From an uncultured Treponema sp. (GTDB taxonomy: Bacteria; Spirochaetota; Spirochaetia; Treponematales; Treponemataceae), in assembly GCA_905236315.1 (NCBI GenBank), contig CAJOPO010000107.1, positions 1-14,238 on the forward strand: a DNA stretch of 14,238 nucleotides. Reading direction: 5' to 3'. Within the stretch, counting starts at the first letter, position 1; each line of letters starts with the position of its first letter. The translations under genes and the position numbers were made by a program. Under the pieces are notes generated by a model. That model was given only the letters and a program-made list of their open reading frames with translations, ran no database searches and was not told the origin of the DNA. Shown piece after piece: positions 509 to 13,717 of this stretch.

Positions 509-3433
509 ATGGCAACTAAGAAACCTTATAAACACCTATCTACTCTAAATGTTTGGGCACTTTCTTTTGGGTGCATTATAGGCTGGGGTGCCTTTGTAAT
601 GCCTGGTACAACCTTGCTTCCTATAGCAGGACCTTTAGGTACTACACTGGGAATGTTAATTGGCTTTGGTATTATGCTTGTACTTGCAGCAAATTATCAT
701 AATATGATGAACCGCTACAGCGAATATGGAGGGGCGTTTTCCTATACAAAGCACATTTTTGGCTATGACCATTCATTTTTATGCGCTTGGTCAATAGTGC
801 TTGCATATCTTTCTGTATTATGGGCTAACGCTACATCATTCATCTTGCTCATGCGCTTTATACTGGGAAATTTCTTTCAGTGGGGCTTTCATTATACGGT
901 TGCAGGTTATGACATATATTTAGGCGAAATTCTTATTACGTTAGCTATAATTTTATTGTTTGGCTTTAATAGTTTAAGAGGAATAAGAGCAAATAAAAGA
1001 CTATATACTATTTTTGCATTAATTTTATTAATAGGTTCTATAATCTGCTTCTTTGCAGTGCTTATTTTTGCTCCTAGTGCAGGACAGAATGTAATGCAAA
1101 ATGTGCACCCGCTATTTTCTTCTGATAATAATGTTCCCATTCAAATATTGAATATTTTTGCTTTAGCACCTTGGGCCTTTGTTGGCTTTGAATCAGTGTC
1201 TTATGCTTCCCCTCGATTTAGCTTTTCAGAAAAGAAATCTTTTAGGATAATATTACTAGCACTTCTATCTGGGGCTGCAATATATATTATCTATTCTCTT
1301 ATTTCCGTCTTTTGCTTACCTAAAGGCTTATCTTGGAATGAATATCTTTCTCACTTGTCAGACTATCCAGGAATAGATGCCCTGCCTGTGTTTCATGCTA
1401 TAAAGTATACGTTAGGTGATAATGGCTTAAAACTTTTATTTTTGTGCATTATATCAGCATTGACTACAAGCCTTATGGGGTGCTTTTCTTCTTGTGCAAA
1501 TCTTGTAAATGCTATGGCAAAAGAAGATATGCTACCCAAATGGTTATCTATAGTAACAAAGGATGGCGTTCCTAAAAATGCTCTCTTTGCAATCATTTTA
1601 GTTTCCCTTCCAATTCCCTTTTTAGGACGCACTGCAATAGGCTGGATTACAGACATTACTACTATAAGTGCTTCTATAACCTATGCTTATACATCTGCTT
1701 GCTGCATAAAAACAGGAATTGCAGAAAAAGATATAAAACAAAAGATTTTGGGAAGTATAGGTATAGTATTTTCCTTGTTATTCTTTTTCTTTCCCCTTAT
1801 TCCAAATCTTTGGAATATGAGTAGCATTGCAACCGAATCTTATTTAATTTTAGTTGCTTGGAGCATAACAGGGTTTATTCTATTTAGGTATGTGTTCCAG
1901 AAAGATAATAAAAATCGTTTTGGTAAGTCTACAGTTATGTGGATTGTTATGCTTTTTTTAATTTTATTTTCGTCTACAATGTGGATAAGGCAGAAAAATC
2001 ATGACCTTATAAAAAACAGCATAGCTGATATTAATACTTTTTATACAGAAGAACTAAAAGAACAAAATATTGTTTTACCAGAAGAAAGCAGGCAAGAAGA
2101 AAGGGAGTATTTAGAAAATCAACTTGCAAAGATTCAATCATCATTGGTAAATACTACAATAATACAAATGATTTTGATTGTGATTACACTTATTGTAATG
2201 TTTAATATTTTTTCTACGCAGCATAAGAGGGAGCAACATTTTTTTGAGGAGAAACTAAAGGCAGAAGAAAGTAACCAAGCAAAGACTACATTCTTATCTA
2301 ATATGAGCCATGATATTCGCACCCCTATGAATGCCATTGTAGGCTATATACGCCTTGCGCGTCAGGGGAACGCTAGTGCAGAGGATATTCAAAATTACCT
2401 TGCAAAAATAGATTCTTCTAGTAAGCACCTTTTGGCATTAATAAATGATGTGCTAGAGATGAGCCGCATAGAAAGTGGCAAGATGGAAATAGAAAATATT
2501 CCTACAAATTTATGTCAAGTAATTGATGATGTGAGGGATATGTTTTCTACGCAAATGCAAACTAAGCATATTGAATATAATGTAAACGCTATAGATATTG
2601 TAAACTCTAATGTGTTGTGTGATAAAAATCGTCTAAATCGTGTGTTATTAAATCTGATTAGTAATGCATATAAGTTTACTCCAGAAGGGGGAAAGGTTTG
2701 CGTAGACTTTAGACAATTAAAGGCAGAAAGCGATGAATATGGTGAGTATGAGCTTAGGGTAAAAGATAGCGGAATTGGAATGTCTCCTGAGTTTGCACAG
2801 AGGGTTTTTGAAGCATTTGAAAGGGAGCGTACTTCAACCGTAAGTGGTATACAAGGGACAGGGCTAGGAATGGCTATTACAAAGGCCATTGTAGATTTGA
2901 TGGGTGGAGATATTAGTGTAAATACAGAGAAGGGCAAGGGAACAGAGTTTGTTATACGCTTAAGGTTTAAAATACAAGAGGTAGAGGCTCCTGAAGAAAA
3001 AGAACTTGTAACTAGTGAGCCTAATGAAGAGGAAAAAACTGTGTTTGATAGTAAATCAATGCGTATCCTTCTTGTTGATGATATGGATGTAAACCGAGAG
3101 ATTTCAAAAATGCTCCTTGAAGGAGAAGGCTTTCCTGTAGAAACTGCTGTGAATGGGCTTGAAGCGGTGGAAAAGGTTAATTCTTCTAAGCCAGGTTACT
3201 ATAAAGCCGTGCTTATGGATATTCAAATGCCTGTTTTAGACGGTTATGGTGCTACACGTGCAATAAGAACGCTAGAAAATAAAGAACTTGCTTCTATTCC
3301 TATCATTGCTATGACAGCAAATGCTTTTGCAGAAGATGTAAAAAAGGCAACGGAAGCGGGGATGGTTGCGCATATTGCTAAGCCTATAGATGTTGATAAA
3401 CTATTTGAAACCTTAAGAAGTATTTTGCGTTAG
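509..3433 (+). CDS. APC-family permease fused to hybrid histidine kinase
   Basis: This single 974-aa polypeptide joins a transporter to a complete hybrid sensor kinase. Residues 1-460 look like a full APC-superfamily amino acid permease of about 12 membrane helices: the broken first helix shows GCIIGWGAFVMPG (21-33), and a GFES segment lies near 226-229. An extra helix (about 474-492), an outside segment of about 56 residues and another helix (about 550-568) follow, which puts the kinase in the cytoplasm. The kinase has an H-box with His601 (SHDIRTP), an N-box (Asn715/Asn719), G1 DSGIG (753-757) and G2 GTGLG (783-787). The C-terminal receiver (851-974) has Asp857/Asp858, phospho-acceptor Asp904 and Lys958. 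No HPt or output domain is present and no partner regulator lies beside it. The permease part probably senses an amino acid or related substrate, with or without moving it; the ligand is unknown. CbrA-type SLC5-kinase fusions are a parallel with a different transporter. Confidence 0.93.
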   Translation: MATKKPYKHLSTLNVWALSFGCIIGWGAFVMPGTTLLPIAGPLGTTLGMLIGFGIMLVLAANYHNMMNRYSEYGGAFSYTKHIFGYDHSFLCAWSIVLAYLSVLWANATSFILLMRFILGNFFQWGFHYTVAGYDIYLGEILITLAIILLFGFNSLRGIRANKRLYTIFALILLIGSIICFFAVLIFAPSAGQNVMQNVHPLFSSDNNVPIQILNIFALAPWAFVGFESVSYASPRFSFSEKKSFRIILLALLSGAAIYIIYSLISVFCLPKGLSWNEYLSHLSDYPGIDALPVFHAIKYTLGDNGLKLLFLCIISALTTSLMGCFSSCANLVNAMAKEDMLPKWLSIVTKDGVPKNALFAIILVSLPIPFLGRTAIGWITDITTISASITYAYTSACCIKTGIAEKDIKQKILGSIGIVFSLLFFFFPLIPNLWNMSSIATESYLILVAWSITGFILFRYVFQKDNKNRFGKSTVMWIVMLFLILFSSTMWIRQKNHDLIKNSIADINTFYTEELKEQNIVLPEESRQEEREYLENQLAKIQSSLVNTTIIQMILIVITLIVMFNIFSTQHKREQHFFEEKLKAEESNQAKTTFLSNMSHDIRTPMNAIVGYIRLARQGNASAEDIQNYLAKIDSSSKHLLALINDVLEMSRIESGKMEIENIPTNLCQVIDDVRDMFSTQMQTKHIEYNVNAIDIVNSNVLCDKNRLNRVLLNLISNAYKFTPEGGKVCVDFRQLKAESDEYGEYELRVKDSGIGMSPEFAQRVFEAFERERTSTVSGIQGTGLGMAITKAIVDLMGGDISVNTEKGKGTEFVIRLRFKIQEVEAPEEKELVTSEPNEEEKTVFDSKSMRILLVDDMDVNREISKMLLEGEGFPVETAVNGLEAVEKVNSSKPGYYKAVLMDIQMPVLDGYGATRAIRTLENKELASIPIIAMTANAFAEDVKKATEAGMVAHIAKPIDVDKLFETLRSILR

Positions 3434-4475: not shown

Positions 4476-5042
4476 TTAGCCGTACATTTTTATTATATTT
4501 TCTGCAATTACGGTGCGCTTTTGCCCTCTGTCCATAGCTTCTTTTTCAATATAGCGATGAGCTTCTTGTTCTGTCATTTTAAGGCATTGCATTAAAAGCA
4601 GTTTTGCTCTGTTAATAAGTCTTATCTCTTCCATTTTTACTTTTAACTTTGCTGTTTGAGAAGAAAGCGACTGTATTTTATAATGAACGGCAATGGCTAC
4701 TTTTATTATGCTGTAAAAGTAGAATAGTTCAAAAGGTTTTGCAATAGTAAGAATACCATAGCTTTCCATTTGATACGATATGGAATCAAAGTGTTCAGAG
4801 GGAACAAGCAAGAGGACTACTGAATAGAAATCAGAAACATTTATAGCAAACTCTGTATCATAGCCATCTCCTGAATCTGCTATAATAATATTAAAGTTAA
4901 ATTCCCCTGCAAGTCTCCTAGCTTCATAGAAATCGGTACAAGTGGTAAGAGAAAACATTGGAGTTGTTAAAAACGATTGAATTTGAGAAATTATTTTATT
5001 GTCTTTTGAAACCAAAAGAACGCTATAATTTTCTGTATTCAT
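4476..5042 (-). CDS. ANTAR-domain response regulator (RNA-binding antiterminator)
   Basis: This 188-aa protein has an N-terminal receiver-like domain (about 6-120), a short helical linker and a C-terminal ANTAR domain (about 132-186). The ANTAR part shows the family pattern: NRAKLLLM (144-151), then TEQEAHRYIEKEAM (157-170) and the final helix ending NIIKMYG. ANTAR proteins of the AmiR/NasR/EutV type bind RNA hairpins with six-base loops and prevent transcription termination. The receiver is atypical: the phospho-acceptor position (Asp56 in IIIADSG) and Lys102 are kept, but the acidic pair is replaced by Ser12-Lys13 and the switch Thr/Ser is not obvious. Control may therefore not be ordinary phosphorylation. 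The gene lies 6 bp after glnA, with AGGA overlapping the glnA stop region, so the two are probably coupled. ANTAR regulators beside glnA are known in some clostridia. It ends the car-gln unit, whose leader contains a terminator. Confidence 0.9.
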   Translation of the reverse strand: MNTENYSVLLVSKDNKIISQIQSFLTTPMFSLTTCTDFYEARRLAGEFNFNIIIADSGDGYDTEFAINVSDFYSVVLLLVPSEHFDSISYQMESYGILTIAKPFELFYFYSIIKVAIAVHYKIQSLSSQTAKLKVKMEEIRLINRAKLLLMQCLKMTEQEAHRYIEKEAMDRGQKRTVIAENIIKMYG

Positions 5043-5048
5043 TTGTTT

Positions 5049-6242
5049 TTATCCTACTATTTTCCCAAGCACAGATTTTACGAAACTACTGTTTAAGGCA
5101 ATTTCTTTTGCATCGCTAAGATTCTGTGGCAAAGGGTGTAAATGTGAATTATTTACAGCATTAAAAAGATTTTCTTTTGTTTCACTAGTAGCTTGAATCT
5201 TATTTTTTATTCCATCAAGGGCTGCTTGAATTATTAGTGTTAGTGCAATGTATGGGTTGCACATGGGGTCTGGAGAGCGCAGTTCTAGTCTTTGCTCATT
5301 CTTACAAAGTGGCATTCTAATAAGTGTAGAACGATTTTGCTTTCCCCATGAAATATAGAGTGGAGCCTTGCTACTACCTAGCCTTAAATATGAAACATCT
5401 TGAGGATTTAGAAAGTAGGTAATTTCTTCTATATGTTTTAAGATGCCACCTAAAATATATGGCATAAGGTCTTCGGAGTTTTTACCATATAAGGAGCGGT
5501 AGGAAATATTTATGTGCATTCCATTTCCTGGCATATCTTTTATGGGCTTAGGAGAAAAATCTGCATAAAGGCCGTTTGCCTGTGCCTTTGTGTGTACTAT
5601 CCACTTAAAAGTTGCAACGTTGTCTGCGGCGGTAAGTGCATCAGAATAATGAAAATCTATTTCGTTTTGTCCAGGTCCTTCTTCGTGGTGGCTTGATTCT
5701 GGTTGTATGCCCATTTGCTCTAACGTAAAACATATATCACGGCGAATGTTTTCTCCTTTATCATCAGGAGCAATATCCATATACCCAGCACTGTCAAAGG
5801 GAATATTTGTTACATTGCCTTGCTCATCAAGTTTAAAAAGGTAAAACTCAATTTCAGTTCCAATGTTAAACTCTAGTCCGTATTCATCTTTTGCAGTTTT
5901 TACAATATTCCTTAACATTGAACGGCAGTCTTTGGGGTATTCGCTACCGTCTGCGGTTTTTATTGTACAGAACATTCTTACAACCTTGCCTGTACTAGGT
6001 CGCCATGGCAATATAGAAATTGTTGTAGGGTCTGGATAAAGAAATAAATCTGAGTTTTCTGGCTCTTCAAAGCCATAGACTGCAGAAGCGTCAAAGCTTA
6101 CACCATCGCGGAATGCGGCTTCTAGTTGCTCTGCCATAATAGAAATATTTTTTTGTACTCCGCTTAAATCAAAAAACGCAAGACGTACAAACTTTACATC
6201 TTCTTCTTTTACATAATCTAAAACTTCGCTTTCTGTGTACAT
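5049..6242 (-). CDS. glnA: Type I glutamine synthetase, short C-terminus
   Basis: It catalyses glutamate + ammonia + ATP to glutamine in the cytoplasm. Family motifs are present: FDASAVYGF (50-58, usually FDGSSI-GF), the metal-site GTEIEF (128-133), the EEGPGQNE segment (187-194), GNGMHINIS (239-247), the RLGSSKAPLYISWG and NRSTLIRMP segments (287-311), and RLELRSPDPMCNPYIAL (318-334). The N-terminal beta-grasp and catalytic domains look complete. The protein stops at 397 residues, straight after FVKSVLGKIVG, whereas typical type I enzymes run to about 440-470. The missing part is the final helical tail, which in known structures ties the two hexamer rings together. The site corresponding to the adenylylated tyrosine region (around 359-372) lacks a clear match. 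A good ribosome site (AGAAGG, about 8 bp upstream) supports the ATG start. It follows carB by 19 bp and supplies the nitrogen donor used by CarAB. Confidence 0.93.
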   Translation of the reverse strand: MYTESEVLDYVKEEDVKFVRLAFFDLSGVQKNISIMAEQLEAAFRDGVSFDASAVYGFEEPENSDLFLYPDPTTISILPWRPSTGKVVRMFCTIKTADGSEYPKDCRSMLRNIVKTAKDEYGLEFNIGTEIEFYLFKLDEQGNVTNIPFDSAGYMDIAPDDKGENIRRDICFTLEQMGIQPESSHHEEGPGQNEIDFHYSDALTAADNVATFKWIVHTKAQANGLYADFSPKPIKDMPGNGMHINISYRSLYGKNSEDLMPYILGGILKHIEEITYFLNPQDVSYLRLGSSKAPLYISWGKQNRSTLIRMPLCKNEQRLELRSPDPMCNPYIALTLIIQAALDGIKNKIQATSETKENLFNAVNNSHLHPLPQNLSDAKEIALNSSFVKSVLGKIVG

Positions 6243-6261: not shown

Positions 6262-9200
6262 TTATGCAGATAAAAAATTAGAGGTGCAAATATCAATTAT
6301 ACTTGTATTTTCTAATGAAAAGGAACTTGCAAGGCAGTCTGCAAGAGCATTTGCAGTGTCCATTGAAGTAAGACAGTCTATATCATGTTCAACGGCAAGC
6401 CTACGTAATCTAACACTTTCTGCAAGTGGGTCTCTGCCTTTTGCTGATGTGGAAATGAGATAAGTGATTTTTCCGCTTTCTAGTAGTGTCATAACGTTAT
6501 TATGATAATCTTCATGGACTTTAGCAATATGTTGCACTTGCATACCAGAACGCTCAATGGTGGAAGCATTGCCTTGTGTTGCGTATAACGTAAATCCTGC
6601 TTCATAAAACTTTTTAGCTAAAGCAGGTAGTTCTGGTAAATCTGTGGCACGTACAGAAAATAGTACACCACCACTTTTTTTCATTTTATATCCTGAAGAT
6701 ACCATACCCTTAAATATGGCTTCACTTTTTGTTTTGGCAATTCCTAGAACTTCTCCAGTGCTTTTCATTTCTGGTCCTAGATGAGTGTCTACGTCAGTGA
6801 GTTTTTCAAAGCTAAACACAGGTACTTTTACTGCAAAGTAATTAGGCTTTTTGTATAATCCTATGCCAAATTCCATATCGCAAAGTTTTTCTCCTAGCAT
6901 AACACGTGTTGCAATTTCTATGATTGGAATATTAGATACTTTGCTAAGATAGGGCACTGTGCGGCTAGAGCGTGGATTTGCTTCTATTATGTAAAGTTCA
7001 TTTTGGTAGATGAGATACTGAATATTTACAAGTCCCTTTGTTTTTAGTGCAAGGGCTAGTGAGATAGATTGTTCTACAATTTTTGTTTCTATATCTGTAC
7101 TAAATTCTCCAGGATAGCAGGCTATAGAATCTCCTGAATGAATACCTGTGCGCTCAATGTGTTCCATAATGCCTGGTATTAGCACATTTTCCCCATCGCA
7201 TATACAATCTAGTTCAAGTTCTTTACCTTCTAAATATTTATCTATAAGGACTGGATTTTGAATAGCCTGTCTAAGAATGATTTTCATATATTCTTTAACG
7301 TCTGCGTTATTATAGGCAACTATCATATTTTGCCCACCTAGTACATAACTAGGACGCAAAAGAACTGGGTAGCCTATTTTAAATGCTACTTCTAATGCTT
7401 CAACTTCTGTAAAAACTGTAAAGCCCTTTGGTCGTTTTATATTGAGCCTATCACATAGTTCTTCAAATCTTTCTCTATCTTCTGCAAGGTCTATAGCATC
7501 TGCATTTGTTCCTAGTATTTTAATTTTTTGTGAATCTAAAAACTTTGTTAGTTTTATGGCTGTTTGCCCACCAAATGCAACTACCACGCCAAGTGGTTTT
7601 TCTATATTAAGTACGTTCATTACATCTGTTGGAGTGAGCGGTTCAAAGTAAAGTCTATCTGCTGTATCAAAATCTGTTGAAACTGTTTCTGGATTATTGT
7701 TTATTATGGCAACTTCATATCCTAGTTTTTTTAATGCTTGAACGCATTGTACGCTTCCATAATCAAATTCAATTCCCTGTCCAATGCGAATTGGTCCAGA
7801 ACCTAAAACAACTATTGTTCCCTTTGTTTTTGTTTGTTTTTTTTCTTTTATAAAATATTCCGCTTCATTTTCTCCGTCCGTAGTGGAGTAAAAATATGGA
7901 GTTTCTGCAGAAAACTCCCCTGCGCATGTGTCAACCATCTTAAATGATTTAGGGGAATAAAATGTTGTGTCTGATATTTTTTTTAATTTATATAAGAACC
8001 ATTTATCAATTTTTGTGATTTTGTATATTTGCTCTATAGTCATAATATTTCTTTTTAATGCCTGATAAATTGCAAATATTCTTTGGTCTGTACATTCTGT
8101 GACACGTTTAATGATTTGTTCATCTCTTTCTTTTTCAAAAGATGGAAGATTCAAGTCTTTTATGCCTATTTCAAGCCCTCGTACTGCTTTTAGAAGTGCT
8201 TCCTCAAAGTTTTGACCTATAGCCATTACTTCTCCAGTTGCTTTCATTTGAGTTCCTAGATTGCGAGAAGCGTATACAAATTTATCAAATGGAAACTTAG
8301 GCATTTTTACAACAACATAGTCAAGCGCAGGTTCAAAGCAAGCCATTGTTTTTTGTGTTACAAAATTAGGAATTTCATCTAGTGTATATCCAAGTGCAAT
8401 TAATGTTGCTACTTTTGCAATGGGGTAGCCTGTCGCTTTACTTGCTAGTGCAGAGGAACGTGATACTCTAGGATTCACTTCTATTACTGCGTATTCAAAA
8501 CTATTAGGATTTAGTGCAAACTGGCAGTTGCAGCCACCTTCTATTTTTAATGTACTTATTATATTTAATGCAGCGGAGCGCAGCATTTGGTATTCCTTAT
8601 CTGCTAGTGTTACGCAAGGCGCAATAACAATAGAATCTCCTGTATGAACACCTACTGGGTCAAAGTTTTCCATTGAGCAGATTGTAATTACGTTTCCCTT
8701 GCAATCTCTCATAACTTCAAATTCTATTTCTTTCCAGCCACTAATACATTTTTCTACTAATATTTGATGAATAGGAGAACGATGAAGCCCATTTTGAGCA
8801 ATTTCTTCTAATTCTAAATCATTTTTTGCAATTCCCCCACCTGTTCCACCTAAAGTAAAAGCAGGGCGAATAATTGCAGGAAAGCCTATTTCATTATGTA
8901 CAAAGTCTATTGCGTCTTTTAAATCTGTAACTACTTTAGAGGGAATGCAAGGCTCTCCTATGGATTTCATAGTATCTTTGAAAAGCTGCCTATCTTCTGC
9001 TTTGTCTATAGTTTCTGGACTTGCACCTAAAAGTTTTACACCGTTTTCTTTTAAGAAACCTGATTTTGCTAGTTCCATACTTAAAGTAAGACCTGTCTGC
9101 CCACCAAGAGTGGAAAGTAGGGAGTCTGGTTTTTCTTTTTGAATAATGCGTTTAAGGGTAGTAAGATTTAGGGATTCAAGATAGATTTGGTCTGCCATAG

Positions 9201-9375
9201 ATTTATCTGTCATAAGTGTGGCAGGATTAGAATTTACAAGACACACTTCTAAGCCTTGCTGCTTTAGTGCCTTGCAAGCCTGATTTCCTGCATAGTCAAA
9301 CTCTGCACCCTGCCCAATTACAATAGGACCTGAACCAATAATCATAACTTTATGAATGTTTTTATTTAATGGCAT
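6262..9375 (-). CDS. carB: Carbamoyl-phosphate synthase large chain
   Basis: This is the synthetase subunit, which uses ammonia from CarA, bicarbonate and two ATP to form carbamoyl phosphate for pyrimidine and arginine synthesis. It has the duplicated ATP-grasp architecture: the carboxyphosphate half (1-400, with GSGPIVIGQGAEFDYAG at 14-30) and the carbamoyl-phosphate half (518-900, with GSGPIRIGQGIEFDYG at 525-540). Both halves contain E-N-PR metal-site motifs (EVNPR 299-303, EANPR 798-802). The C-terminal MGS-like allosteric domain covers about 903-1018. At 1037 aa it is shorter than the usual 1065-1075, mainly because the middle oligomerization domain is cut down: KWFLYKLKKI (458-467) runs almost directly into FKMVDTCAGEF (478-488). 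Several effector-site residues in the MGS domain also differ. The ATG lies inside the end of carA (14-bp overlap), with GGAG about 10 bp upstream. Confidence 0.96.
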   Translation of the reverse strand: MPLNKNIHKVMIIGSGPIVIGQGAEFDYAGNQACKALKQQGLEVCLVNSNPATLMTDKSMADQIYLESLNLTTLKRIIQKEKPDSLLSTLGGQTGLTLSMELAKSGFLKENGVKLLGASPETIDKAEDRQLFKDTMKSIGEPCIPSKVVTDLKDAIDFVHNEIGFPAIIRPAFTLGGTGGGIAKNDLELEEIAQNGLHRSPIHQILVEKCISGWKEIEFEVMRDCKGNVITICSMENFDPVGVHTGDSIVIAPCVTLADKEYQMLRSAALNIISTLKIEGGCNCQFALNPNSFEYAVIEVNPRVSRSSALASKATGYPIAKVATLIALGYTLDEIPNFVTQKTMACFEPALDYVVVKMPKFPFDKFVYASRNLGTQMKATGEVMAIGQNFEEALLKAVRGLEIGIKDLNLPSFEKERDEQIIKRVTECTDQRIFAIYQALKRNIMTIEQIYKITKIDKWFLYKLKKISDTTFYSPKSFKMVDTCAGEFSAETPYFYSTTDGENEAEYFIKEKKQTKTKGTIVVLGSGPIRIGQGIEFDYGSVQCVQALKKLGYEVAIINNNPETVSTDFDTADRLYFEPLTPTDVMNVLNIEKPLGVVVAFGGQTAIKLTKFLDSQKIKILGTNADAIDLAEDRERFEELCDRLNIKRPKGFTVFTEVEALEVAFKIGYPVLLRPSYVLGGQNMIVAYNNADVKEYMKIILRQAIQNPVLIDKYLEGKELELDCICDGENVLIPGIMEHIERTGIHSGDSIACYPGEFSTDIETKIVEQSISLALALKTKGLVNIQYLIYQNELYIIEANPRSSRTVPYLSKVSNIPIIEIATRVMLGEKLCDMEFGIGLYKKPNYFAVKVPVFSFEKLTDVDTHLGPEMKSTGEVLGIAKTKSEAIFKGMVSSGYKMKKSGGVLFSVRATDLPELPALAKKFYEAGFTLYATQGNASTIERSGMQVQHIAKVHEDYHNNVMTLLESGKITYLISTSAKGRDPLAESVRLRRLAVEHDIDCLTSMDTANALADCLASSFSLENTSIIDICTSNFLSA

Positions 9376-10516
9376 AAGAGTTTCTCTCCATTATCATTTT
9401 TGCAAACTTATCAAATAAGAAATTTGTATCATGCGGACCACCACAGGCTTCTGGGTGAAACTGTACACTAAAGGCTGGGATATCTGTGTAGTCTATGCCC
9501 TCACAAGTGTTATCATTCATATTTATAAAACGTAATTTTAATGATGGAGGTAACGAAGCATTTTCTACAGCATAACCGTGATTTTGACTTGTAATATATA
9601 TTCTGCCATTTTCTAAATCTTTTACAGGGTGGTTTGCACCTCTGTGGCCATATTTTAATTTACTAGTCTTTGCCCCATTTGCAAGAGCTAGAAGTTGATG
9701 CCCTAAACAAATTCCAAAAATAGTAATTGGCGCATTAGTATTTTTATTCCATTCACATATTTTTTTTATTTCTTCAATTATATAAATATTTTCTGAAGGG
9801 TCGCCAGGTCCATTGCTGAGAATAAGACCATCTGGCTTTAATTTTATTATTTCTTGAGCGGTAGTATTATACGGAACGCTTATAACATTAAACCTCCTTT
9901 TTTGTAATTCTCGTATAATGTTTTCTTTAGCACCAAAATTATATATTACTACGGTTTTAATTTCTTTTGCATTAGTTTCTGATATACGAATATTGCTTGG
10001 TGTTTGTTGAACCGCTTTTAGTGCATTTGTAATTTTATAATTTCTTATTTTGCTTAATAAGCTCTCTTTTTGCAAAGGATTTTTTAGAACGTTATCTATA
10101 TTTTGGATTTCTTTTCCGCTTATAATCATAGCGTTCATAACGCCTATATTTCGTAGCAATTTTGTTAAATGTCTTGTATCAATTCCTGCAATACCTATTA
10201 TTCCTTGCGATTGTAAAAAAGACTCTAATGTATATTCACTGCGAAAGTTGGAAGGCTTCTCACATAATTCATGCACAATATATCCATTTAACCATGCTTT
10301 TTTACTTTCAAAGTCTTGCAAACTTATTCCGTAATTACCAATTAAAGGAAATGTTTGCATAACAATTTGACCATAATAGCTTGGGTCTGTTAAAGTCTCT
10401 GTATACCCTGTCATTCCTGTTGTAAATACTATTTCCCCAATCGTACTGCCAGTTTTCCCAATAGCTTTTCCTTCAAAAATTGCTCCATTTGCAAGAATTA
10501 GATATGCTTTGTCCAA
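9362..10516 (-). CDS. carA: Carbamoyl-phosphate synthase small chain
   Basis: This is the glutaminase subunit, which hydrolyses glutamine and passes ammonia through an internal tunnel to CarB. Residues 1-150 form the CarA-specific N-terminal domain. Residues about 186-378 are the class I amidotransferase domain, with the nucleophile Cys270 in FGICLGHQ and the partner His354 and Glu356 in VQFHPEA. The oxyanion loop NGPGDP (235-240) is also present. The 384-aa length is normal. The start is TTG (complement of 10514-10516), chosen because GAGG lies six bases upstream and the family's N-terminal strand begins just there; no ATG or GTG is available at this point. It heads the carA-carB-glnA-ANTAR unit and is preceded by a strong terminator in its own leader, so its expression probably depends on read-through. 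Confidence 0.96.
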   Translation of the reverse strand: MDKAYLILANGAIFEGKAIGKTGSTIGEIVFTTGMTGYTETLTDPSYYGQIVMQTFPLIGNYGISLQDFESKKAWLNGYIVHELCEKPSNFRSEYTLESFLQSQGIIGIAGIDTRHLTKLLRNIGVMNAMIISGKEIQNIDNVLKNPLQKESLLSKIRNYKITNALKAVQQTPSNIRISETNAKEIKTVVIYNFGAKENIIRELQKRRFNVISVPYNTTAQEIIKLKPDGLILSNGPGDPSENIYIIEEIKKICEWNKNTNAPITIFGICLGHQLLALANGAKTSKLKYGHRGANHPVKDLENGRIYITSQNHGYAVENASLPPSLKLRFINMNDNTCEGIDYTDIPAFSVQFHPEACGGPHDTNFLFDKFAKMIMERNSYAIK

Positions 10517-10522
10517 AATTAG

Positions 10523-10526
10523 CCTC
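10523..10526 (-). promoter_or_regulatory. Ribosome binding site fixing the carA TTG start
   Basis: GAGG on the minus strand sits six bases before the TTG codon and only four bases beyond the T-run of the leader terminator. It supports TTG as the true start. It also places the ribosome site directly beside the termination point. Confidence 0.6.
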
Positions 10527-10530
10527 GCAT

Positions 10531-10584
10531 AAAAAAAGCGTCCACCCCTCTTACCAACAATAAGTTGACAAGTTGAATGAACGC
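10531..10584 (-). terminator. Leader terminator (attenuator) of carAB-glnA-ANTAR
   Basis: On the minus strand the leader folds into a long hairpin. The outer arm GCGUUCAUUC (10584-10575) pairs with 10547-10538 (10 bp including G-U pairs). After a 2x2 internal loop, CUUGUCAAC (10572-10564) pairs with GUUGGUAAG (10558-10550) around the loop UUAUU. Seven U follow at once (10537-10531). It lies between the carA promoter and the carA start codon with no room for another promoter. Every transcript of the operon must therefore pass it, as in transcription attenuation. It would also stop read-through from the upstream membrane-protein gene. Confidence 0.85.
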
Positions 10585-10598
10585 CTTTGTTCTATTTC
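10575..10598 (-). promoter_or_regulatory. Candidate ANTAR-type hexaloop antiterminator hairpin
   Basis: Near the start of the carA transcript, GAAC (10592-10589), loop AAAGGC (10588-10583) and GUUC (10582-10579) form a hairpin. It can be extended by GAA/UUC pairing (10598-10596 with 10577-10575) across a small internal loop. The loop has six bases with A at position 1 and G at position 4, the feature recognised by ANTAR proteins. Its 3' arm is part of the terminator's 5' arm, so the two folds exclude each other. Known ANTAR sites have two such hairpins, and I do not find a convincing second one. The core stem is only 4 bp. Confidence 0.45.
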
Positions 10599-10602
10599 CT
10601 TA

Positions 10603-10631
10603 ATTATATTAATAGAAAATATTTTTGTCAA
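10603..10631 (-). promoter_or_regulatory. Consensus sigma-70 promoter of carA
   Basis: On the minus strand, a perfect TTGACA (10631-10626) and a perfect TATAAT (10608-10603) are separated by exactly 17 bases. The expected start is around 10596-10598, giving a leader of about 80 nt. The promoter lies just after the stop codon of the upstream membrane-protein gene and is expected to be strong, which fits control by attenuation downstream. Confidence 0.9.
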
Positions 10632-10651: not shown

Positions 10652-13600
10652 TTAGTCTCCTGTCAGTAATTGAATACCTGTAATGTTTATATTAGGGTTT
10701 TCATTTTCCACTTTTAAAATTTGTATTTCATCAGTATACCAGTAATAATCTATGCTTGGACGTATGATATAATCACATTCTCCACTACGAACGTTAAAGT
10801 TGATATTAAACTTTTTGTAAAAAGAATTATTTTTATTCTCCCCAAATACAAGATTTATGGTTTTATCAGAAGCTGTATTATTTATATGCAATAAAAGATA
10901 GTTCCCCATATTTTTTTGTACATCTGAAATCTGTGGTATTTGATAAACGCCATCATTACATTCTAATGTAGAAATGGGTATGTTATTTTTTGCATTCCTT
11001 ATGTCTTTATTTGCCCATAGATATGCTAGATTATTTTCTAGATATTTATGAAAATCAAATTTGTCATCATAGCCATAATCAATTTGTTCTAGTGATTTAT
11101 CTAAAGTATTATTATAGAAATTGTACTTTTCTTTATCACACCAAATTGCATATTCACCAACAGAACATAGTGGTCTATAGTTTTGATATAGATATTCTGC
11201 TATTTTATAGTACCTCAAAACTACAGGTACTCCATCAATGGATTTTGACAAATAATAAGAACTCAAAGGGAAAAGTGCTATAGGTAACTTTTCTTTTTGG
11301 CTTTTTATTTCATTAATAAAGCAGTTTTGACTAAATTCCCCTGATAGCATGGAAGGAGATTGTGAGATATACACAGGGCACTCCCTTTGCATTGCAGAAT
11401 AAATAAATGTTGTAGATGTGAAATCAATAAAAGATTCATCTTTGCTTAATAAAATATCAATTACATTTTCTAATTCTTTATAATGTTCTTTTGAATGTTC
11501 GCTTAATAAGACTCTCTCAACATTTTCTTTTGGCATAGATATTTGTTTATTTTTTTCAATGAATCTCGCTATGTATCCAAAGTCAAATATATTTGTATTT
11601 TCGCAAAAAAATAAATAGCTTATAAAAAGTAAAATTGTAAAAATAGGGGAAAACAACGCTTTCTTTTTTCTTACAATACTTATAAAAAGCGGAATAAATA
11701 GCCATACAGTGTACATACCTACGCGAATAAAGTTTGCGGTTTCTGCAAAACTATGCCTAACTAAAAAGCGGGGAACGTTAAAAAAATATGTAAAACCTAA
11801 GATTAAAAGTAATACAATATCTTCTGCGTTATAGTCTTTAAAATTTATCTTATTTGAAAATATTAAGAAACTAAGGCAACTTGCCATAAAAACTGGAATT
11901 ACAAGATATGCTATGGTATATCCTACTTTTGTAATTGCTCCAAGTGAAGTGTATGCCCAAGATGTGTTTGAACTTGAAATAGCAATAAATTCATGTAATC
12001 TATCTATAGGATTAATGCCTTTAAAAATACACAAAAGAGACCAAACTAATATTCCGAATATAGCACTTGTTCCAAGAGTAAAAAATACTTCTTGTGCTAC
12101 ATTTTTATTTTTTGTTTTTATGCAATAGATACATAAACTTACTATAGTGCTACCTAAAAAAGCATAACCTAAATCTAACCTAAAGAGTGTAATACATACA
12201 AATGAAAACCAAATATAATATGCTCGTATTAAAGAGTTTTTCTTTATGTATTGAATTACAGTAACGCAAAGAAAAAGTCCTCCCATAAAGTATGTTGAAG
12301 CGGATTCATAGGGAATGAATAGAGTAATTAAAGAAGCTAAAAACTCACCTACGATATTTTTTAGTGTAAGATAAAATAATACGGCAAATATTGTTGATTG
12401 AATATAGTATGCATACGGAGATGCAATAGCACCAGAAAAATCTCCATTAAGAATAGCATATAAGATGCCAGTTATAACATCTGTTAGCATATGTCCACCG
12501 TAATGTTCAACTATTGGGAGCTTTCCAAATTGTAAAAAGTCGCTTATTAAAATACTTGAATTTGCAGATTCAAAAATATCTGGGCTAAAATTAATTTGTA
12601 ATGGAGGTTGCGTTGAGCACATTACAATTCCTGCTATGATTATTGGATAAACAAAGTTTTTATTCCAGAGTTTAAAACTTTTATTTGATTTTACATACCA
12701 TAATGAATATACAAAAGCTACAATAAGTATTGTTAGAAATAAAATTATAAGGTAGCGAGAAAAATGTGATATAAAAACTGAATGTTGATTAAGAATAAAA
12801 ACACCTTCGATTAATAAGGATGTAATAAAGGGTAAAGTGATAATTACGCAGGAAGTAAAATCAAAAAATGGATAAAGTATAGCTTTGCTTGTAATATAGC
12901 TCCAATTTCTTGAAATAATTAAACTTAAAAATACAGCTAAAGGAAGTAGAAATAAAAAGCATTTTTGACTACCAATAAAAGGCAAGCAAAAAACTGTATA
13001 ACAAACTAAGGAAAAAGTTGTAAGTTCAATTTGCTTAAAGACTTCAAGTTCAATATATTTTTCAAAATTAAAAAATAAATATATAAATGAAATAGCAAAT
13101 ATAAATATTTGCATTAAAGTTGAATATATAGCGTAGGTAGAGTTAAAAATAATTCCGTCTTTAAAATATGAAACACCACCATATAATAATAGCAAAGATA
13201 GTGAGAGAGCTGAAAAGTTATCTAAAAACTGCCATATTTTTTGACAATTATTTGTAGATTTTTTAATACGTAAATAATTAAAGAAAAATGAAAGACTTGC
13301 TAGTAATATTACAAATGTAAAAATCCAAATATAAAAATTGTGGATAAGAGCCGAAATATCATAGTCTGCTAATACAGTTTGTCCTATTTGTCGAGAAAAC
13401 TTGTTTATTTGTATTGATTTTATGGATGTTGGATTTACTAATAAAATAGAAAGAAGAGAAAAGTATATACTGTAAAGGAGTGATTCTTTATAAAACTTTT
13501 CTTTGTATGCTGAATATACTTTTTCAAAATTAAAAATTGTATATGTTACACTACAAAATATACATGCTTCAATAAAAAATGAGAATATAAAAACTTTCTT

Positions 13601-13717
13601 TGATATTTGGGTTAGTTGCTCTATATGAAGCTTTAATGAGAATATTGCTAATGATAATACTACTAAAAAAGAAAGTAGTTTTAATATATGTGTTTTATTT
13701 AATTTTGTTTCTACCAT
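10652..13717 (-). CDS. Large multi-pass membrane protein, possibly GT-C glycosyltransferase-like
   Basis: I do not recognise a specific family. The 1021-aa protein has roughly 18-20 predicted membrane helices in residues 1-705 and a soluble C-terminal part of about 310 residues. The first ten or so helices (to about 370) form a block of their own. The second block starts with an outside loop rich in acidic and polar residues (FSPDIFESANSS, 377-388, and VEHYGGHM, 403-410), followed by helices that include FRLDLGY (512-518). A long first loop with acidic residues followed by many helices resembles GT-C lipid-linked-sugar transferases, and the neighbouring sugar cupin fits a surface glycan role; this is inference. 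The C-terminal part has no recognised motif and a strand-rich end. A weak AGG site about 11 bp upstream supports the ATG. It is very AT-rich, like its neighbour. Confidence 0.8.
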   Translation of the reverse strand: MVETKLNKTHILKLLSFLVVLSLAIFSLKLHIEQLTQISKKVFIFSFFIEACIFCSVTYTIFNFEKVYSAYKEKFYKESLLYSIYFSLLSILLVNPTSIKSIQINKFSRQIGQTVLADYDISALIHNFYIWIFTFVILLASLSFFFNYLRIKKSTNNCQKIWQFLDNFSALSLSLLLLYGGVSYFKDGIIFNSTYAIYSTLMQIFIFAISFIYLFFNFEKYIELEVFKQIELTTFSLVCYTVFCLPFIGSQKCFLFLLPLAVFLSLIISRNWSYITSKAILYPFFDFTSCVIITLPFITSLLIEGVFILNQHSVFISHFSRYLIILFLTILIVAFVYSLWYVKSNKSFKLWNKNFVYPIIIAGIVMCSTQPPLQINFSPDIFESANSSILISDFLQFGKLPIVEHYGGHMLTDVITGILYAILNGDFSGAIASPYAYYIQSTIFAVLFYLTLKNIVGEFLASLITLFIPYESASTYFMGGLFLCVTVIQYIKKNSLIRAYYIWFSFVCITLFRLDLGYAFLGSTIVSLCIYCIKTKNKNVAQEVFFTLGTSAIFGILVWSLLCIFKGINPIDRLHEFIAISSSNTSWAYTSLGAITKVGYTIAYLVIPVFMASCLSFLIFSNKINFKDYNAEDIVLLLILGFTYFFNVPRFLVRHSFAETANFIRVGMYTVWLFIPLFISIVRKKKALFSPIFTILLFISYLFFCENTNIFDFGYIARFIEKNKQISMPKENVERVLLSEHSKEHYKELENVIDILLSKDESFIDFTSTTFIYSAMQRECPVYISQSPSMLSGEFSQNCFINEIKSQKEKLPIALFPLSSYYLSKSIDGVPVVLRYYKIAEYLYQNYRPLCSVGEYAIWCDKEKYNFYNNTLDKSLEQIDYGYDDKFDFHKYLENNLAYLWANKDIRNAKNNIPISTLECNDGVYQIPQISDVQKNMGNYLLLHINNTASDKTINLVFGENKNNSFYKKFNINFNVRSGECDYIIRPSIDYYWYTDEIQILKVENENPNINITGIQLLTGD

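Follow-up and report, generated by a model that had tools for sequence, protein, structure and literature searches.

The stretch of DNA analysed here (the window, 14,238 nucleotides) is a contig of a gut Treponema genome that is 84.5% complete, and the 80 nearest relatives of its carA gene are likewise records of Treponema or other spirochaetes. On the minus strand it carries the gene order carA-carB-glnA-ANTAR, successive genes overlapping or lying apart by no more than 19 bases, and in front of carA lies a short leader. The features are as follows.

10626..10631, minus strand: -35 hexamer TTGACA, from the promoter scan
10603..10608, minus strand: -10 hexamer TATAAT, from the promoter scan, separated by 10 bases from the stem of the hairpin
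10579..10592, minus strand: hexaloop hairpin of the antiterminator type, GAAC[AAAGGC]GUUC, from sequence, covariation and folding
10531..10588, minus strand: intrinsic terminator, whose 5' arm begins inside the hexaloop and whose T run spans 10537-10531
10523..10526, minus strand: GAGG, likely the ribosome site of carA, by eye
9362..10516, minus strand: carA, carbamoyl-phosphate synthase small chain, with a TTG start at 10516 (Pfam)
6262..9375, minus strand: carB, carbamoyl-phosphate synthase large chain (Pfam)
5049..6242, minus strand: glnA, short type-I-like glutamine synthetase of 397 aa (Pfam)
4476..5042, minus strand: ANTAR protein with a receiver-like N-terminus, the proposed reader of the hairpin (Pfam, alignments)

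The glnA product (397 aa) stays below the NCBIfam cut-off for type I, with 351 vs 429 bits. The region of the carA promoter is immediately preceded by a gene for a probable membrane protein of 1021 aa with zero Pfam matches (10652-13717, minus strand). On the far side of rsgA, running towards the ANTAR operon, the plus strand encodes a 974-aa fusion protein that joins an amino-acid permease to a hybrid histidine kinase and a receiver (509-3433), and stretches related to it were seen after carB in locus L037 (51%) and near the ANTAR gene in L025 (29%). This fusion is a possible amino-acid sensor; as the sensor of the ANTAR protein it was rejected, its neighbourhood not being conserved among the ANTAR loci compared.

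The initial annotation had placed a perfect-consensus promoter before the leader, and TTGACA-17-TATAAT is indeed the sole 12-of-12 site among the 44 promoter-like sites of the window. Shuffles would lead one to expect 60.8 such sites, more than the 44 present, so it is solely the perfect score that speaks for this promoter; the carA transcript would start near 10596. The strong terminator described as ending a few bases before the ribosome site is there as well: its T run stops 4 bases before GAGG, and a 78-nt stretch folds at -27.7 vs -14.1 +/- 2.7 for shuffles (z -5.0), while a simple terminator scan, limited to loops of at most 8, did not report it. The hexaloop hairpin, said to share its 3' arm with this terminator, does so at 10592-10579, and the terminator reuses not only that arm but the loop too. 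By minimum-energy folding the 68-nt leader reaches -26.7 kcal/mol, compared with -12.6 kcal/mol when the hexaloop hairpin is forced, and in folds of the growing transcript the hexaloop hairpin persists up to 56 nt and is replaced by the terminator at 60 nt.

In order to follow this leader through relatives, we gathered 81 carA loci (80 relatives and the window) and examined 79, dropping L089 and L111 with their gene starts cut. A hexaloop hairpin lies directly upstream of carA in 51 of the 79, the window included; 25 have none, and in three more (L034, L058, L062) the hairpin was false. The 25 include variants (loop GAAGRC in L064 and L066, a broken stem in L082) and two loci cut by contig ends (L041, L061), and in many of the remainder carA sits, as judged by eye, behind the coding sequence of another gene. 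At L107, L109 and L110 a leader directly upstream of carA was not found. Aligning 42 of the 47 distinct carA leaders (L048, L063, L095, L100 and L104 were left out) gave 168 of 168 cells paired in the hexaloop stem, a figure partly built in by picking rows that have the hairpin, with both partners exchanged in three of the four pairs; in the terminator, 94.6% of 920 cells are paired and both partners are exchanged in 14 of 22 pairs. A second alignment of 30 leaders from several kinds of genes (11 carA and 19 other; L182, L187, L197 and L203 were left out of its set of 24 leaders) has 97.5% of 120 cells paired in the hexaloop stem and 96.9% of 419 in the terminator, with 27 and 60 double-changed cells against 7.7 and 14.9 in shuffles, respectively. 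Two further measures were unremarkable, namely the number of further pair types in the carA alignment, reached by 61 of 500 shuffles, and the number of pairs with a double change in the mixed one, reached by 379 of 500. Computation thus bears out the mutually exclusive hairpins of the initial annotation: the antiterminator and terminator stems compete for one strand, and both covary. The hairpin is more than chance, because it recurs with compensatory changes.

The collection of leaders from all genes comprises 99, of which 95 are distinct; repeats of carA loci (L176, L178, L180, L183, L185, L206, L208) were counted once, and L188, the carA locus of G033 with a 5-base loop, was excluded. At loop position 4 all 95 have G, and at position 1 there are 87 with A and 8 with G, with the reservation that outside carA such conservation is partly built in, as the leaders were found by models trained on leaders of this kind; of the expected A1 and G4, G4 is thus constant, and position 1 is A or G. 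Position 2 is A in 95, position 3 A in 80, position 5 G or A in 95 and position 6 C in 87. The loop is closed by C-G in 94 of the 95 and by U-G in one, the pair next to this being A-U in 66, G-C in 24, G-U in 7, U-A in one and unpaired in one (n=99), and 86 of the 95 have a stem of at least 4 bp. Because the AAAG of the loop also pairs with CUUU in the terminator, loop conservation alone is not proof of recognition; the independent evidence is the upstream arm and the fixed spacing only.

A promoter matching at least 9 of 12 positions precedes 80 of the 99 leaders, and in 68 of these 80 the end of the -10 hexamer and the stem are 5-13 nt apart; for every 99 sequences, shuffling produced 17 such promoters, with 3.6 falling at 4-12 nt. 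Most of these promoters leave no space upstream for a second hexaloop. Within 2-25 nt upstream, 3 of 99 leaders have a second A1/G4 hexaloop (5.8 +/- 2.2 in shuffles), and within the same distance downstream 11 of 99 do (10.0 +/- 3.3 in shuffles), with enrichment on neither side; one leader, L234, is misplaced in the promoter and upstream counts and correctly placed in the downstream count. The leader is not a standard dual-hexaloop ANTAR target: the second hexaloop, which had not been visible in the window, is really missing.

Searches for leaders before other genes relied on two models without antiterminator pairs, R1, which held terminator pairs only, and R2, trained on leaders from many of the searched genomes, G007 and G066 among them. 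In the window's own genome R1 found one further site, followed by genes for a glutamine synthetase of type III and for an ammonium transporter; the other model matches there had E above 4, which is chance level, and a simple IUPAC scan was uninformative, with 71 matches vs 125 in the reversed control. Across 59 genomes of the genus, R1 and R2 placed leaders before carA, pyrG, asnB, gltB, amt, glnN, gdhA and nadE, before ABC transporters, ornithine cyclodeaminase, a PucR regulator and glnA-ANTAR, and before an isochorismatase-family protein with a circularly permuted ATP-grasp protein. A leader also precedes the gene of a protein that combines an ammonium transporter with a PII signalling domain (L194, 293-2056), and in two other species (G025, G071) the leader precedes glnA-ANTAR itself. 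The leader regions read were a subset of all matches (40 from R1 and 18 further from R2), and the downstream genes, about 16 labels in all and mostly of nitrogen metabolism, were labelled by Pfam for 20 proteins and otherwise by eye from the likeness of protein starts. Behind the leader of L200 no gene was identified, and the matches L189, L193, L195, L201, L204, L210, L213, L144, L282 and L283 were judged by eye to be non-leaders. Two other families carry the leader before pyrG, a gltB-like amidotransferase, asnB, amt and glnN. These computations show a regulon that is wide in nitrogen and glutamine metabolism and is not a pyrimidine regulon. Of the nitrogen/pyrimidine circuit first suggested, the nitrogen half stands; pyrimidine control was rejected on account of similar leaders before gltB, amt, asnB, glnN and transporters. 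In G001, which has the ANTAR gene and no R2 match, hexaloops GATGGC with terminators occur in L222 at 3253 and 8517, perhaps a drifted form of the leader.

As a control, 135 other strong terminators in 80 carA loci were tested for a hexaloop closed by 4 or more base pairs. Three neighbouring registers fit the leader arrangement, and there 26, 11 and 26 terminators had such a stem, against 0, 2 and 2 at three non-fitting registers; 59 of the 63 hexaloops at fitting registers have A1 and G4. Among 24 such terminators that were read, 22 precede nitrogen or amino-acid genes (asnB 10, dapF 7, pyrG or its preceding gene 3, glnN 1, nadE 1), and behind two no gene was identified. The hexaloop-bearing terminators of the control set look like further leaders, and because its matches are mostly further A1/G4 hexaloops, the set gave no clean background rate. 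There is a second subtype of leader, CGRC[AAAGAG]GUCG, with a different terminator arm, before asnB, the diaminopimelate epimerase gene dapF and glnN (loci include L033, L039, L043, L045, L050, L051, L065, L087, L096 and L098). Leaders of glnN, the type III glutamine synthetase gene, hold a tandem pair of hexaloops, each having a terminator of its own (L174 in the window's own genome, 1-330, and L202, L235 and L099), the first loop being AATGAG, AACGAG or AAAGAG. In L043, L045, L067 and L090, hexaloops that lie two together at a distance of 52-92 bases may be tandem arrangements too.

At the carA leader of the window, we propose an attenuator in which the ANTAR protein holds the single hexaloop, giving a self-controlled loop together with a nitrogen regulon, a reading to which we give a probability of roughly 0.77. 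RNA polymerase would start a few bases before the hexaloop hairpin, which, as computed on growing transcripts, would form first and later be consumed by the longer terminator hairpin; once the latter has formed, transcription would stop before carA. Under a shortage of nitrogen or glutamine, the presumed signal, the ANTAR protein made from the last gene of the operon would bind the single hexaloop, so that the terminator could not form and carAB-glnA-ANTAR would be transcribed. Similar leaders of other nitrogen genes would be read by the same protein. One hexaloop near the 5' end of the RNA would suffice here, without the upstream recruitment hairpin required by EutV. The initial annotation's reading of an ANTAR-controlled attenuator is supported, because the stems covary, G4 is fixed, leader and ANTAR gene occur together, and the leader precedes glnA-ANTAR in two other species; that the ANTAR protein is what reads the hairpin we infer.

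It is this step that leaves room for another reader: the leader could be a two-state nitrogen attenuator whose hexaloop is recognised by some other RNA-binding factor, with the ANTAR gene merely a member of the regulon. The distribution of leaders argues against this. Among 198 genomes of the class, counted with the window's own genome, the leader (E <= 0.001) is present in 15 of 29 with the ANTAR gene vs 0 of 169 without it (Fisher 6e-15, phylogeny ignored), where the ANTAR and leader searches were taken as one genome sample on the strength of equal genome number and agreeing handles. In the genus, leaders (E <= 0.02) were found in 44 of 51 ANTAR genomes vs 2 of 8 others, G007 and G066 (Fisher 8e-4, again ignoring phylogeny). 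Laxer filters on 34 chosen genomes gave matches in 7 of 14 ANTAR genomes previously missed and in 1 of 20 without the gene, which after reading, with L282 (ANTAR genome) and L283 (no ANTAR) set aside as non-leaders, became 6 of 14 vs 0 of 20. Two other families have genomes whose leader adjoins the ANTAR gene or lies at most 2 kb from it (G091, G181, G173; G258, G269, G206, G245), and the hexaloop itself, with its fixed G4 and C-G closing pair, is as in ANTAR targets.

The two exceptions in the genus speak for the other reader. In G007 (94% complete, 280 contigs), which has a good nadE leader (L198, G007:C93), neither the ANTAR gene nor a matching glnA was found, either because the gene was lost or because of an assembly gap; in G066 (72% complete) leaders are present and the ANTAR gene was not found. 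A search with the window's glnA in 7 of the 8 ANTAR-less genomes of the genus gave three without a match, two weak matches (E 5e-4 and 1e-3), a divergent match in G066 and a clear one (49%) in G013, where the ANTAR gene was likewise not found. At each of 29 loci inspected, out of 35 matches outside the window's own genome, the gene immediately ahead of ANTAR was glnA. A glnA-linked ANTAR regulator, NitR, is also known from Clostridium.

The protein bears on the same question. That the fourth gene encodes an ANTAR protein is borne out by its PF03861 domain (57.7 bits vs a curated cut-off of 27.3), and its matches among solved structures are 1s8n (a putative antiterminator), which we take to be Rv1626, 1qo0 (AmiR), 4akk (NasR) and 6wsh (a response regulator), presumably EutV. 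For 1s8n the identity with Rv1626 is also given in the part of PMC8934654 drawn on here, from which we took the EutV residues that touch the hexaloop. By our reading of the alignment, in 29 readable rows of 30 and with numbering offset by two from EutV, the contacts K149, E160 and M172 correspond to K147, E158 and M170 and are kept in 29 of 29 rows, while the equivalents of K143 and K147 (141 and 145) are R or K. Three contacts are replaced, Tyr164 by His (25) or Gln (4), Arg142 by Ile (29) and Arg168 by Glu (29), and N173, R175 and R177 are not kept as such, which leaves some weight with the other reader. The receiver pocket is incomplete, with D56 in 29 of 29 rows and its lysine partner K102 in 16 of 29. 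On balance, an alternative reader of the hexaloop appears improbable.

A comparably improbable alternative keeps the ANTAR protein as the reader and has two hexaloops still in use, through two transcripts bridged by a dimer or through a non-canonical second hairpin. It draws on what is known of ANTAR systems: in the parts of PMC3369931, PMC8164766 and PMC8934654 drawn on here, the target of ANTAR antitermination is two hexaloops, EutV requires both P1 and P2 in vivo (PMC3369931), and a short linker between them is needed as well (PMC3369931, PMC8934654). The tandem hexaloops of the glnN leaders, each with its own terminator, also fit this alternative. Conversely, A1/G4 hexaloops close to either side of the first are not above shuffles, promoters leave no upstream space in most leaders, and the authors of the 2022 structure paper PMC8934654 judge the binding of two transcripts in trans unlikely, as stated in the part of that paper considered here. 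In that same part, EutV binds isolated P1 or P2 and the minimal binding motif is redefined as one hexaloop, antitermination is still held to need both hairpins, and single sites are expected where polymerase imposes no time limit, with a call for work on these.

A last pair of readings, a plain terminator that has an A-tract and fortuitous complementarity upstream, or a pyrimidine-responsive attenuator, is very improbable. In their favour, the loop is paired with the U run, a common feature of terminators, the enzyme encoded by carA supplies the pyrimidine pathway, and the targets include pyrG. Against them, the hexaloop stem shows compensatory changes outside the terminator, a covariation that is hard to reconcile with chance, the targets are mostly nitrogen genes including gltB, amt and asnB, and Rfam covariance models (PyrR site, riboswitches etc.) gave zero matches to the leader above the gathering score.

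The attenuator proposed to be read by the ANTAR protein resembles the eut leaders of EutV/EutW in Enterococcus faecalis, as far as the parts of PMC3369931 and PMC8934654 used here describe them, in its G4 hexaloop with mostly A1, its short stem with conserved closing pairs, the 3' arm common to an intrinsic terminator, and an ANTAR protein carrying a receiver-like domain. It differs from them in having one hexaloop where eut has P1 and P2 with a linker of 5-12 nt, in a hairpin near the 5' end of the RNA whose loop forms the base of the terminator, and in an atypical receiver with no kinase partner identified. The window's ANTAR protein matches the solved structures of AmiR (amiE) and NasR (nasF), with which it has the nitrogen theme in common, and with AmiR it shares, in the alignments, a His at the position of EutV Tyr164; neither of their sensors (AmiC, NIT domain) turned up in the present system. 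Their leaders, unlike ours, are described with a dual hexaloop motif in the part of PMC3369931 drawn on. The nitrogen ANTAR regulon predicted there for Desulfotomaculum likewise joins many nitrogen operons under one leader type and includes enzymes of glutamate and glutamine synthesis, but was found by a dual-hairpin model. With the binding unit of PMC8934654, in the part used, our leaders share one hexaloop as the unit, whereas contrary to what is expected there for single sites, the present ones sit inside attenuators. In the open-access literature searched, we found no described ANTAR regulon in Treponema or spirochaetes and, for ANTAR with glnA or single hexaloops, no report of the present regulon; the term 'spirochaet', in that spelling, is absent from the main text of PMC3369931 and PMC8164766.

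Spirochaetes of at least three families probably possess an ANTAR nitrogen regulon in which one hexaloop near the 5' end is enough for antitermination without a recruitment hairpin, glnN stands behind a double gate, and the operon of the regulator is under the same switch. In the current model, as given in the parts of the papers cited above, an ANTAR dimer overcomes the terminator only by engaging two hexaloops one after the other. The 99 leaders are natural single-hexaloop attenuators and form a direct test set for the role of single hexaloops, and they offer an RNA-based system of nitrogen control for spirochaetes.
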